DNA of 37,999 bases from Solirubrobacteraceae bacterium (GTDB lineage: Bacteria > Actinomycetota > Thermoleophilia > Solirubrobacterales > Solirubrobacteraceae): positions 1 through 37,999 of the forward strand of contig JADGPN010000009.1 in the NCBI GenBank assembly GCA_017882465.1, given 5' to 3'. Each line of letters starts with the position of its first letter. Within the stretch, counting starts at the first letter, position 1. Shown here piece after piece: positions 25,336 to 37,999 of the stretch. Under the pieces are notes generated by a model. It was not told where the DNA came from. It saw nothing but the letters and a program-made list of their open reading frames with translations, and did no database searches. Made by a program: the position numbers and the translations under genes.

Positions 25336-26121
25336 TCAGCGGCCCCGCCACTCGGCGGGTCGCTTCTCCGCGAAGGCGCGAACGCCCTCGCGGAAATCCT
25401 CCGAGCTGAAGCAGGCCCGGCGGAGCTCGATCAGCTCCCGCTCGACCTCGGGGTCGAGCGCGACGTGGGCGTTGAGCACCGCGGTGATGACCCGCTTGTT
25501 GCCGCGGCTGGCCAGGGGGGCGTTGGCGGCGATCTCCACCGCCATCTCGACCGCCTCCTCGGACAGCCGGCCGGGCTCGGCCAGCGCGTTCACGAGACCC
25601 CAGGAACGCGCGGTGCGGGCGTCGATCCGCCGGCCGAGCAGGAACAGCTCACGGGTGCGGGGCGCGCCGATCGTGTCGATGAACTTGCGGACCCCCGTGT
25701 GGGAGTAGACGAGCCCGAGCTTCGCGGGCGGCATCGCAAGGGCGATCGTGCCGGCGGCGAGACGAAGATCGCAGGACAGCGCCAGCTCGAGGCCGCCGCC
25801 GATCGTGTGGCCGTTGAGCGCGGCCACCGTGGGGTAGGGGTAGGCCCCGACGGCATCGATGGCCGCCGCGAACGGATGGGCGATGAGCTTCTCGGCCTCG
25901 TCGGCGAACACCTCGTCGGGCAGATCGCCGATGTCGTAGCCCGCTGAGAAGGTGGCGCCCTCGCCGGTGACGATCACGCAGCGCGCGTCGAGCCGGGGCA
26001 TCGTGGTCGCGAACTGATCCAGGATCGCGTGATCCAGGGCGCCCCGCTTGCCCGGGTTGGAGATCGTGAGCCTGGCGACGCCCGGTGCCGGCTCGTCCAG
26101 GAGCAGGCTGCCGCTACTCAA
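25336..26121 (-). CDS. Enoyl-CoA hydratase/isomerase family protein
   Basis: A 261-residue crotonase-fold protein. The oxyanion-hole parts are ATFSAGYDIGDL and ALNGHTIGGGLELALSCDL. The first catalytic Glu (Glu144 of rat hydratase) is kept in GGGLEL, but the second (Glu164) is replaced, with MPPAKLGLVYSHTG where PE is normal. So ordinary hydratase activity is uncertain; isomerase or another CoA reaction is possible. The TTG start at 26121 overlaps the stop of the biotin-carrier gene by 8 bases, so the two are coupled. Next comes bioB. Confidence 0.85.
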   Translation of the reverse strand: MSSGSLLLDEPAPGVARLTISNPGKRGALDHAILDQFATTMPRLDARCVIVTGEGATFSAGYDIGDLPDEVFADEAEKLIAHPFAAAIDAVGAYPYPTVAALNGHTIGGGLELALSCDLRLAAGTIALAMPPAKLGLVYSHTGVRKFIDTIGAPRTRELFLLGRRIDARTARSWGLVNALAEPGRLSEEAVEMAVEIAANAPLASRGNKRVITAVLNAHVALDPEVERELIELRRACFSSEDFREGVRAFAEKRPAEWRGR

Positions 26122-35374: not shown

Positions 35375-36559
35375 CTACAGCCCGTAGGAGCGGCCGATGA
35401 CCTCGAGCATGATTTCGTCGGTGCCGGCCCCGATCCGGTTCAGCCGCAGGTCGCGCCACGAGCGCTCGATCCCGTATTCCTTCATGTACCCGGCGCCGCC
35501 ATGGATCTGGATGCACTCGTCGGCCACCTCGACCGCGATCCGCGACGCGTACAGCTTCGCCATCGAGATCTCGCGGACTGGGTACTCGCCGTTCTGCAGG
35601 CGCCAGGCCGTCGTGTAGACCATCTGGCGGGCGGTCTCGATCTTGGTCGCCATCTCCGCGAACTTGTGGCGGATCACCTGGAACTGCCCGATCGCGCGGC
35701 CGAAGGCCTTGCGCTCCTTGGCGTACTCGAGCGTGCGGTCGAACACGTGCTGCGCGCCCGCCACCGAGCCCGCGGCGCCGATCAAGCGCTCTCCCTGCAG
35801 CTCCCACATGATGTGGTAAAAGCCCTTGCCGACCTCGCCGAGTACCGCCGAGGACGGCACGCGCACGTCCCGGAAGGCCAGCAGCGCGGTGTCGGAGGCG
35901 TGCATGCCGAGCTTCTGCAGGCGCTGCTCGCGGATCACGCCGGGCGCGTCCATGGGGACCAGGAACAACGTGAAGCCGTCATACCCGGCGTCGGGATCGG
36001 TCTTGGTCACGAGCACGATCACGTGCGCGCGATGTCCATTGGTGATGTAGGTCTTGGAGCCGTTGATCACGTACTCGTCGCCGTCGCGGATCGCGCGCGT
36101 CTTGATTCCCGATACGTCCGATCCGGCGTCGGGCTCGGTGATCCCCAGGCAGAGGATCTTCTCGCCCTTGATCGCGGGCACGGCCCATTCCTGCTTCTGC
36201 TCCTCGGTGCCGAAGGCGAGGATCGGCGGCAGCGCCATGTCGGTCTGCACGGCCAGGCCCATCGCGAGGCCGCCGCAGTGGGCATGGACCATCTCCTCGG
36301 AGAGCACCAGGCTCGTGTAGTAGTCGCCGCCCTGGCCGCCGTACTGACCGGGCTTGTCGAGTCCCAGGAAGCCCAGCTCGCCCATCCGCGCGAACACCCA
36401 GTCGGGGAAGGTGTTCTCCTCCCACTCGTCGGCGTGGGGCTGCAGCTCCTTGATCACGAAGCGGCGGATCGACTCGCGCAGCTGCTCGTGCTCGTCGGTG
36501 AAGATGAAGTGCCTGCGCTGGGATGCGAAGTCGGGCTTGAGGACGTCGGCGGTGGCCAT
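35375..36559 (-). CDS. Acyl-CoA dehydrogenase
   Basis: A 394-residue FAD enzyme that puts a double bond into an acyl-CoA. Family blocks: FTDEHEQLRESIRRFVIKEL, CLGITEPDAGSDVSGIKTRA, NGSKTYITNGHRA, RKAFGRAIGQFQVIRHKFAE and IQIHGGAGYMKEYGIERSWR. The catalytic base is Glu361 in KEYG, at the position used by short- and medium-chain enzymes rather than the isovaleryl type. ATG 36559 has AGGAGA 7 bases upstream. It is divergent from an enoyl-CoA hydratase, and between them lies an AGAAGT-N10-ACTTCT site that also occurs before the carboxyltransferase. Chain length of the substrate is unknown. Confidence 0.92.
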   Translation of the reverse strand: MATADVLKPDFASQRRHFIFTDEHEQLRESIRRFVIKELQPHADEWEENTFPDWVFARMGELGFLGLDKPGQYGGQGGDYYTSLVLSEEMVHAHCGGLAMGLAVQTDMALPPILAFGTEEQKQEWAVPAIKGEKILCLGITEPDAGSDVSGIKTRAIRDGDEYVINGSKTYITNGHRAHVIVLVTKTDPDAGYDGFTLFLVPMDAPGVIREQRLQKLGMHASDTALLAFRDVRVPSSAVLGEVGKGFYHIMWELQGERLIGAAGSVAGAQHVFDRTLEYAKERKAFGRAIGQFQVIRHKFAEMATKIETARQMVYTTAWRLQNGEYPVREISMAKLYASRIAVEVADECIQIHGGAGYMKEYGIERSWRDLRLNRIGAGTDEIMLEVIGRSYGL

Positions 36560-36626
36560 TGGCTGTCTCCTGTGCGGTCGCGGACGGCGTGCGGTCGGCG
36601 CCGCCGACCGTAGCGAAGCGCCGGGC

Positions 36627-36648
36627 AGAAGTAAACAGTAGGACTTCT
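36627..36648. promoter_or_regulatory. Shared acyl-CoA operator, site A
   Basis: AGAAGT (36627-36632), ten bases, ACTTCT (36643-36648). The wider form has AGAAGTAA and TTACTTCT arms (36627-36634 and 36648-36655), plus a run of three ACTTC units every seven bases (36643-36661). It lies between the divergent acyl-CoA dehydrogenase and enoyl-CoA hydratase genes and probably controls both. A TetR-type repressor is a reasonable guess, not shown. Confidence 0.65.
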
Positions 36649-36698
36649 TACTTCTCACTTCACAGCGCCCTGGCGAATTCATCCGTAGGCTTCCGCGC

Positions 36699-37484
36699 AT
36701 GCCCTACGAAACCCTCCGCTTCGACGTCGCCGGCACCGGCGTCGCGACCATCGCGCTCGATCAGCCCGAGACCCGCAACGCCCTCTCGAACGAGCTCCTG
36801 AGCGACCTCGTCTCGGCGCTGGAGCAGGCCCGTGACGATCCCGCCGTTCGCTGCGTGGTGCTCACCTCCACCCATCGGAAGGTCTTCTCCAGCGGCGGCA
36901 ACCTCGCCGGCTTCGCGGCCGACGTGCCGCTCGTGCACAAGCACTTCGGCACCGACCTGTTTCCGCACGCGTTCCGCCTGCTCGGCGAGCTGGGCAAGCC
37001 GTCGATCTGCGCCGCCAACGGGCACGTGCTCGCCGGCGCGCTCGGCCTGGCCCTGGCGTGTGATCTGATCGTCGCCTCCGACGGCGCGCGGTTCGGCACC
37101 CCGGAGATCAATGTCGGCGTGTTCCCGTTCATGATCATGGCGCTGATCTACCGCAACGTCGGGCGCAAGAAGACCAACGAGCTGCTGCTGCTGGGAGAGC
37201 AGATCTCGGCGGCCGAGGCCGAGCGGATCGGGATCGTCAACCGCGTCGTCGCCGCGGGGGAGTTCGACGCGGCCGTCGCCGACTGGGCCGAGAAGCTGGC
37301 GCGCAAGTCGCCGGTGATGATGAAGCTCGGCAAGGACGCGATGTTCCGCCAGCAGGACATGGCCTTCGCCGACGCCCTGGACTTCCTGCGCTCCCAGCTG
37401 ACGATCGCGTTCTCGACCGAGGACATCCAGGAGGGCGTCAGGGCCTTCTTCGAGAAGCGCGATCCGGTGTGGACCGGCCGCTGA
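36699..37484 (+). CDS. Enoyl-CoA hydratase/isomerase family protein
   Basis: A 261-residue crotonase-fold protein that would act after the neighbouring acyl-CoA dehydrogenase. Oxyanion-hole parts: KVFSSGGNLAGFAAD and AANGHVLAGALGLALACDLI. The second catalytic Glu is present in FGTPEINVGVFPF, but the first is replaced by Gly in AGALGLAL, the opposite of the hydratase at 26121. So ordinary water addition may be weak, or the reaction differs. The C-terminal EDIQEGVRAFFEKRDPVWTGR is typical. ATG 36699 has a weak ribosome site. Confidence 0.88.
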   Translation: MPYETLRFDVAGTGVATIALDQPETRNALSNELLSDLVSALEQARDDPAVRCVVLTSTHRKVFSSGGNLAGFAADVPLVHKHFGTDLFPHAFRLLGELGKPSICAANGHVLAGALGLALACDLIVASDGARFGTPEINVGVFPFMIMALIYRNVGRKKTNELLLLGEQISAAEAERIGIVNRVVAAGEFDAAVADWAEKLARKSPVMMKLGKDAMFRQQDMAFADALDFLRSQLTIAFSTEDIQEGVRAFFEKRDPVWTGR

Positions 37485-37531
37485 GGTGGGCCTGAGGCCG
37501 GCGCTCGCCGCAAGCGGGGCCGCCCGCGACC

Positions 37532-37584
37532 TTGACGTCAATGCGGACGGCCTGGCACAGTGAGAAGTAGAACGTCTCACTTCT
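37532..37584 (+). promoter_or_regulatory. Promoter region with acyl-CoA operator site B
   Basis: TTGACG (37532-37537) is a good -35 with CACAGT (37556-37561) as a weak -10, 18 bases apart. Overlapping and following it is AGAAGT (37563-37568), ten bases, ACTTCT (37579-37584), the same element as site A. The longer arms AGTGAGAAGT (37559-37568) and ACTTCTCGCT (37579-37588) match as an inverted repeat at 9 of 10 positions. Binding here would block transcription of the carboxyltransferase gene. Confidence 0.65.
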
Positions 37585-37645
37585 CGCTTTCGCCACCTTC
37601 GTCCGCGAGAGCGCGCGCCACACCGCCCCCCGACCCCTTGCGCCC

Positions 37646-37999
37646 ATGACCACAGACGCCGCCAGTGCCGGTTTGCTCCGCCCGCTCGCCGATGACCTCG
37701 CCGCCCGCCGAGCGAGGATCAAGGAGGGTGGCGGGGCCGAGAAGATCGCGGCCCAGCACGCGCGGGAGAAGCTCACCGCGCGTGAGCGCCTCGACCTGCT
37801 GATCGACGCCGGGACCTGGGTCGAGCTCGGGATCCACGGCCGGCCACACTTCTCACAGCGCGCGATGGAGGGCAAGGATGCTCCGGCGGACGGCGTGATC
37901 ACCGGCTACGGCAAGGTCGAAGGGCGCTTGGTGGCGGTGTGCGCCTATGACTTCACGGTGATGGCCGGCTCGATGGGCATGACCGGCGAGTTCAAGGTC
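37646..37999 (+). CDS. Acyl-CoA carboxylase carboxyltransferase subunit, partial
   Basis: The first 118 codons of a carboxyltransferase (beta) subunit that moves CO2 from carrier biotin to an acyl-CoA, as in propionyl-CoA or related carboxylases; the rest is beyond the window. Visible: RRARIKEGGGAEKIAAQHAR then EKLTARERLDLLIDAGTWVE, DGVITGYGKVEGRLVAVCAY and DFTVMAGSMGMTGEFKV, the standard N-terminal order. The sequence looks more like propionyl-type than methylcrotonyl-type subunits. ATG 37646 is the first good start. Operator site B lies 62 bases upstream. Confidence 0.88.
   Translation, partial: MTTDAASAGLLRPLADDLAARRARIKEGGGAEKIAAQHAREKLTARERLDLLIDAGTWVELGIHGRPHFSQRAMEGKDAPADGVITGYGKVEGRLVAVCAYDFTVMAGSMGMTGEFKV

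Follow-up and report, generated by a model that had tools for sequence, protein, structure and literature searches.

Several MerR-family regulators have been described that resemble, in one respect or another, the protein considered here. LiuR represses branched-chain amino acid utilisation in Proteobacteria (available text of PMC3223726 and PMC5343134). FtsR controls ftsZ through the motif AACCCTAAAGTAAAGGTTGAGGGTA, and its authors found no ligand, as far as the available portion of their paper goes (PMC6683498); the available excerpt of a review gives 'Fatty acids' for Rv1828 (PMC9909328). BldC is a protein of 68 residues without a sensor domain, with 9-bp direct repeats arranged head to tail (excerpt of PMC5859096). 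Classical MerR promoters have spacers of 19–20 bp (same excerpt of PMC9909328).

The protein to which our analysis leads, here called operon MerR, is like LiuR a MerR-family regulator with a putative catabolic regulon containing acyl-CoA steps, and LiuR differs by its description in belonging to Proteobacteria and in having a larger regulon (13.7 in a table in the available text of PMC5343134). Like BldC, operon MerR has a MerR-type winged helix and a candidate operator of repeated elements, but it has about 235 residues with a C-terminal domain, and the elements are spaced by 7-bp steps in two inverted arms. Among the papers listed by a literature search, none described this regulon.

The stretch of DNA analysed (the window) is 37,999 nt long and is a complete contig (C716) of an assembly of 5.52 Mb in 757 contigs. 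Near its right end, an acyl-CoA dehydrogenase gene (35375–36559, minus strand, 394 aa; Pfam PF00441, PF02771 and PF02770), which has orthologues in the clusters of relatives, diverges from a gene for an enoyl-CoA hydratase/isomerase family protein (36699–37484, plus strand, 261 aa; PF00378, 205.5 bits). Next, a gene for an acyl-CoA carboxylase carboxyltransferase begins (37646–37999, plus strand, 118 codons; PF01039) and is cut by the contig end; this piece is 78% identical to the full-length relative in locus L072. An earlier note, made from the letters, had named all three genes correctly, and it was also right that the window holds no regulator gene. The window holds another enoyl-CoA hydratase at 25336–26121, a distant paralogue with 29% identity, and the window scans gave no operator match there.

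The same note had reported the dyad AGAAGT-N10-ACTTCT at 36627–36648 and 37563–37584 (both unstranded), and these two exact copies proved to be the only ones in the window and in the whole assembly. With up to two mismatches, the dyad occurs at three places in the window against 0.16 expected from shuffles, the third being 36634–36655. The genome scan that the note had proposed bore out the exact pair and gave no enrichment of near-copies: one place has one mismatch (C509:15291) and 27 have two, so that the assembly holds 30 places at up to two mismatches against 62 for a reversed control. Near matches of the dyad thus carry no meaning, and the information lies in the exact pair. C509:15291 and C91:654 were considered as further sites and taken as chance, as both fall inside ORFs of a crude gene call.

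What the relatives keep is a 16-bp core, AGTRRNACKTYYYACT (R at the sixth place), found exactly in the window at 36637–36652 (plus strand, AGTAGGACTTCTTACT) and at 37566–37581 (plus strand, AGTAGAACGTCTCACT, an exact match on both strands). The core sits within an array of about 30 bp in which AGT/ACT triplets are spaced by 7-bp steps. In the extended operator 1 (36629–36659, unstranded), which matches AAGTNNNNAGTRRNACKTYYYACTTNC with one mismatch, AGT stands at 36630 and 36637 and ACT at 36643, 36650 and 36657, with 7-bp steps within each arm; the extended operator 2 (37559–37588, unstranded) departs from the 27-bp pattern at two positions, whichever strand is read. The profile of 43 hydratase-side sites, the window's included, reads AAAGT.ga.AGTaG.ACtTCctACTT.C.AC (lower case, weaker). 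Conservation is strongest at AGT (core 0–2) and ACT (core 13–15), and further AGT/AC triplets lie 7 bp outside these two, in addition to AC at core 6–7. The operator is palindromic about two centres of nearly equal strength, core 7.5 and 4.0 in the hydratase direction, the latter being 11.0 if read in the dehydrogenase direction. The operator is thus an inverted array of triplets, stepped by 7 bp and symmetrical about more than one point.

This frame changes the register of one dyad. Copy 2 starts at core −3 and is centred on the conserved centre, but copy 1, as the earlier note had placed it, starts at core −10, one 7-bp step away. Symmetry about its centre (core 0.5) is near background, and profile symmetry and core alignment together rule out its register as the conserved frame; the true counterpart of copy 2 at site 1 is the two-mismatch place at 36634–36655. 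Sixty-six sites were aligned, 43 from hydratase, 10 from carboxyltransferase and 13 from BKACE promoters (BKACE is beta-keto acid cleavage enzyme); three of them, including both window sites, carry the 12 dyad bases exactly in either register.

Searching 61 genomes for the core with at most one mismatch, at which level the reversed core is about equally frequent, led to 20 stretches, mostly chosen where two core matches shared one contig. Eighteen hold the cluster, and in 15 of these a MerR gene follows the CoA-transferase or BKACE gene; the contig ends first in the other three. The usual order of the operon in relatives is carboxyltransferase, BKACE (PF05853), class III CoA-transferase (PF02515), MerR (PF13411) and carbon-nitrogen hydrolase. 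No MerR gene lies in the window; the contig ends within the carboxyltransferase gene, and in relatives with a full operon MerR lies about 2–3 kb beyond. The assembly has one full-length MerR, on another contig (C610:3358-4056), which begins at carboxyltransferase residue 109. Window positions 37970–37999 and G000:C610:1-30 (L161) encode the same ten residues but one, with 5 of 30 bases different (by eye), so C610 may derive from another strain or from a second copy, or may be a contaminant in the bin.

The N-terminal winged helix-turn-helix of operon MerR is recognised by Pfam (74.6 bits, cut-off 21.6) and by fold comparison. A MerR alignment scanned against 84,980 species matched 198 relatives, and the 80 best of these were retained; they are mostly Solirubrobacterales, Solirubrobacteraceae, Thermoleophilaceae, Conexibacter or Paraconexibacter, some being labelled just Actinobacteria or Actinomycetota and one simply 'bacterium'. 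In a phylum-wide sample, MerR was found in 10 of 296 genomes, all from the window's order, and a plasmid search gave just three partial matches, each below 60% identity.

By fold comparison, the C-terminal domain appears to resemble the sensor domain of Rv1828/FtsR and, more weakly, the oleate-containing domain of Rv1264; its sequence profile found no match in the PDB (best E 0.46). Rv1264 is an adenylyl cyclase with oleic acid in its structure and not a transcription factor, and the match to it is weak for a helical domain. On these likenesses, an acyl-CoA or a fatty acid is a plausible signal. Operon MerR is not FtsR itself: three members score 57.9, 58.2 and 54.1 bits with the FtsR model (NF050798) against a cut-off of 150, and in five of five genomes checked a true FtsR gene (219–224 bits) is separate from the operon MerR gene. 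In the window's assembly, one of these five, the true FtsR gene is at G000:C427:16223-16879 (L257; 218.8 bits), apart from operon MerR.

Conservation of the sites was examined at distinct loci in the 250 bp before each gene, allowing two mismatches in the core; the sites that met this threshold also entered the profiles. The core lies upstream of 47/50 dehydrogenases and 43/54 hydratases, often as one shared divergent site counted from both sides, and is absent from the other 3 and 11. It also lies upstream of 10/58 carboxyltransferase and 13/76 BKACE genes. At the same threshold, none was found before CoA-transferase (0/73), MerR (0/90) or carbon-nitrogen hydrolase (0/68), nor in one mononucleotide shuffle of each upstream region. 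Counts and profile leave out L072, L073, L067, L064, L059 and L074 as duplicate loci, L070 and L071, which are without cluster genes, and L076, which does carry the core before its dehydrogenase. The two loci without cluster genes, both of G016, have a one-mismatch core and were set aside as candidate sites.

Whether the later genes have a site of their own goes with their distance from the preceding gene. For gaps between hydratase and carboxyltransferase of up to 100, 101–300 and more than 300 bp, the core is present in 1/48, 2/8 and 8/14, respectively, and for gaps between carboxyltransferase and BKACE in 9/25 above 300 bp and 0/56 when shorter. The extra site thus accompanies genes that stand apart, and the window's carboxyltransferase, at a gap of 161 bp, is such a case; yet many wide gaps lack a core, and some of these contain intervening genes. 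In G008, a MerR-bearing member of the window's own genus (L072/L081, one contig), a site is found before the carboxyltransferase only and none between dehydrogenase and hydratase. Across genera of related Solirubrobacterales the same promoters carry the sites, which is the conservation in relatives that the earlier note had looked to for added weight.

Its further proposal, a small acyl-CoA regulon marked by the sites, fits where the exact sites fall in regulator-bearing genomes: the 31 MerR genomes with an exact core hold 47 such sites, and all 47 are 4–94 bp upstream of a cluster gene. When 18 chosen genomes of the 56 with MerR were scanned with the 27-bp pattern at up to three mismatches, 32 sites were obtained, mostly one to three per genome, against one match for the reversed control. 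Twenty-eight are upstream of cluster genes, two of these being relocated dehydrogenases in genus g32, and one precedes a further ORF of dehydrogenase type by about 80 bp (start codon by reading). Three operator-like sites stand within about 10 bp of the starts, assigned by reading, of thiolase-like ORFs (PF18313; L240, L241 and L242), one in G231 and two in g32; these ORFs are possibly further members of the regulon. Elsewhere, two genomes without MerR share a two-mismatch core, TGTAGCACTTCTCACC, which lies some 500 bp past the point where the dehydrogenase gene ends (L186:6887 and L188:7101).

How the sites would act can be judged from predicted promoters. Before the carboxyltransferase, a −35 element TTGACG (37532–37537, plus strand) and a −10 element CACAGT (37556–37561, plus strand; overlapping operator 2) are predicted with a spacer of 18 bp, and the core of operator 2 lies directly behind this −10, over the expected start. 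Of 23 promoters of carboxyltransferase or BKACE genes, 11, including that of the window, have TTGAC at −34/−33 from the core (shuffle mean 0.05), as do 7 of 43 hydratase promoters (shuffle mean 0.07). Among these 18, 17 also carry CANNNT at −10 to −5 from the core, a conservation not independent of the operator because its last three bases are the operator's outer AGT. For the dehydrogenase, the predicted −35 is TTTACT (36630–36635, minus strand), overlapping the outer triplet of operator 1, and the predicted −10 is TACGGT (36607–36612, minus strand), outside the operator, with a spacer of 17 bp. T[TC][TC]AC occupies this −35 place in 41/47 loci, again not independently since it overlaps the operator, and TANNNT the −10 place in 20/47.

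With predicted spacers of 17–18 bp and the core either downstream of the −10 or upstream of the −35, the classical layout of 19–20 bp is not found, which argues against the classical MerR mechanism and not against the MerR fold. As judged from sequence, the promoter geometry favours repression, and the repression would be the main effect because the core covers the expected start just downstream of the −10 or abuts the −35. Alternatively, MerR could bind the sites mainly as an activator, either classically or from upstream at the dehydrogenase promoter, where the centre of the core lies some 44 bp ahead of the start expected from the predicted −10, a place that activators use too. MerR proteins typically convert from repressor to activator, according to the available excerpt of PMC9909328. 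We consider this unlikely, given the spacers and given that the core, at the promoters of carboxyltransferase, BKACE and some hydratases, covers the point where transcription is expected to begin.

The link between MerR and the sites was examined in 250 genomes of the class, with MerR called at E ≤ 1e-30 and genomes matched by eye. MerR is present in 56 and the exact core in 33, 31 of them bearing MerR, so the exact core occurs in 31/56 with MerR versus 2/194 without (Fisher 6e-22, kinship ignored). The reversed core also matches roughly 30 of the 250 (by eye); because the counts of genomes are so similar, the evidence is the location of the sites and not their frequency. G187 and G154 have an exact core with neither MerR nor a cluster gene in the stretches examined, and were taken as chance. 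In L223 (G272:C1:4643587-4644274), the MerR match is in two pieces, possibly by a frame break, and two exact sites persist.

Among the 58 genomes with the carboxyltransferase (E ≤ 1e-150), the 42 with MerR were all scored, as were 12 of the 16 without; of the other four, G026, G240 and G201 have the dehydrogenase and hydratase starts off their contigs, and G096 (47% identity) was left aside. Upstream of the dehydrogenase or hydratase, the core at up to two mismatches is found in 42/42 genomes with MerR versus 1/12 scored without, and at up to one mismatch in 39/42 versus 0/12. The MerR-less genome retaining a two-mismatch site is G081. In another, G138, the contig concerned (L196, G138:C144) carries a carboxyltransferase near-identical to that of G185, from another family (branch 0.0036), and is probably a stray contig in the bin; it holds a two-mismatch core away from the hydratase, and without G138 the MerR-less count is 1/11. 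Relatives that keep the carboxyltransferase but lack the site, a situation named in the earlier note as telling against its reading, do occur; they make up most of the scored genomes without MerR and none of the 42 with it.

Genera g1, g29 and g35 each show contrasts in MerR and site. On a quick carboxyltransferase tree of 54 rows (with long branches for G228 and G015, the C610 piece for the window genome, and G081 counted as site-bearing), the presence of MerR changes at least eight times, four of them forced by well-supported branches. In independent pairs from the tree, the site never goes opposite to MerR, and the four pairs on supported branches are too few for significance (median p 0.125). 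Genus g32 has a MerR with 49–53% identity to the nearest query, and some of the enzymes are encoded elsewhere. Here ACCT replaces the ACTT/ACGT of the core in six of the seven best sites, before two dehydrogenases (72–74% identical) and four CoA-transferase/MerR operons, a fifth operon having ACGT; the change is seen in one lineage, and the operon sites were located, without a shuffle control, at up to four mismatches to patterns, one of which came from the two dehydrogenase sites. In g32, the diverged MerR and the operator seem to have changed together.

These lines of evidence bear on which protein recognises the sites. Acyl-CoA repressors of the TetR type are frequent in actinobacteria, and TetR operators often have the size of a 16-bp inverted repeat. 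The earlier note had suggested such a repressor, and one encoded elsewhere, TetR-type or other, could read the sites with MerR as a passenger gained and lost along with them. That guess has found no support: a Pfam scan of 20 neighbour representatives gave no TetR domain, and the regulator travelling with the sites, the only one recognised by eye among the recurrent families of 38 loci (mostly MerR-chosen), is of the MerR family. The joint occurrence of MerR and site and the operator change in g32 also speak against it, and the outer triplets, 12–14 bp from the centre, would be far for one TetR dimer, so that we hold this reading to be quite improbable. The comparisons (site conservation, site location, the joint occurrence of site and MerR, and their joint change in one genus) point to an undescribed MerR-type protein encoded in the carboxyltransferase operon, which is very probably the cognate regulator of the sites and would bind them directly. 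That the dyads arose by chance or form an attenuator or other RNA structure is hardly credible, even though the dyad at up to two mismatches is no commoner in the genome than its reversed control, because the sites are conserved across genera at the same promoters and ahead of different transcription units.

We thus favour, as the likely explanation of the whole, a local regulon specific to one pathway, in which MerR binds the two sites as operators, mainly represses, and is released by an acyl-CoA or fatty acid. MerR would be made from the end of the operon that starts with the carboxyltransferase gene, of which the window contig stops short. It would bind the AGT/ACT array at the divergent dehydrogenase/hydratase promoter, and also at the promoter of the carboxyltransferase, or of BKACE in other species, wherever that gene begins a transcription unit of its own; in this way MerR would control its own gene too. 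The bound protein would mainly repress, its operator occupying the start point or adjoining the −35, until an acyl-CoA or fatty acid in the C-terminal domain releases it. More tentatively, operon MerR may belong to an undescribed subfamily paralogous to FtsR, in which the orphan sensor of the Rv1828/FtsR type has turned into an acyl-CoA or fatty-acid switch; AGT triplets phased by 7 bp across the transcription start would then be read by several dimers, or by one dimer with extra half-sites, and repression would work by occlusion, not untwisting.

In this way, sequence connects a MerR protein that lacks annotation with its likely operator and with its target enzymes, across an order of little-studied soil actinobacteria. 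The operator is a clean annotation marker, as the cluster was marked by each of the 47 exact sites found in the 31 MerR-bearing genomes that have an exact core. An apparently FtsR-like sensor fold inside an operon of acyl-CoA enzymes narrows the candidate ligands and makes the question testable. If the reading as a switch paralogous to FtsR is true, the ligand, made by the neighbouring enzymes, would show what this sensor fold binds.
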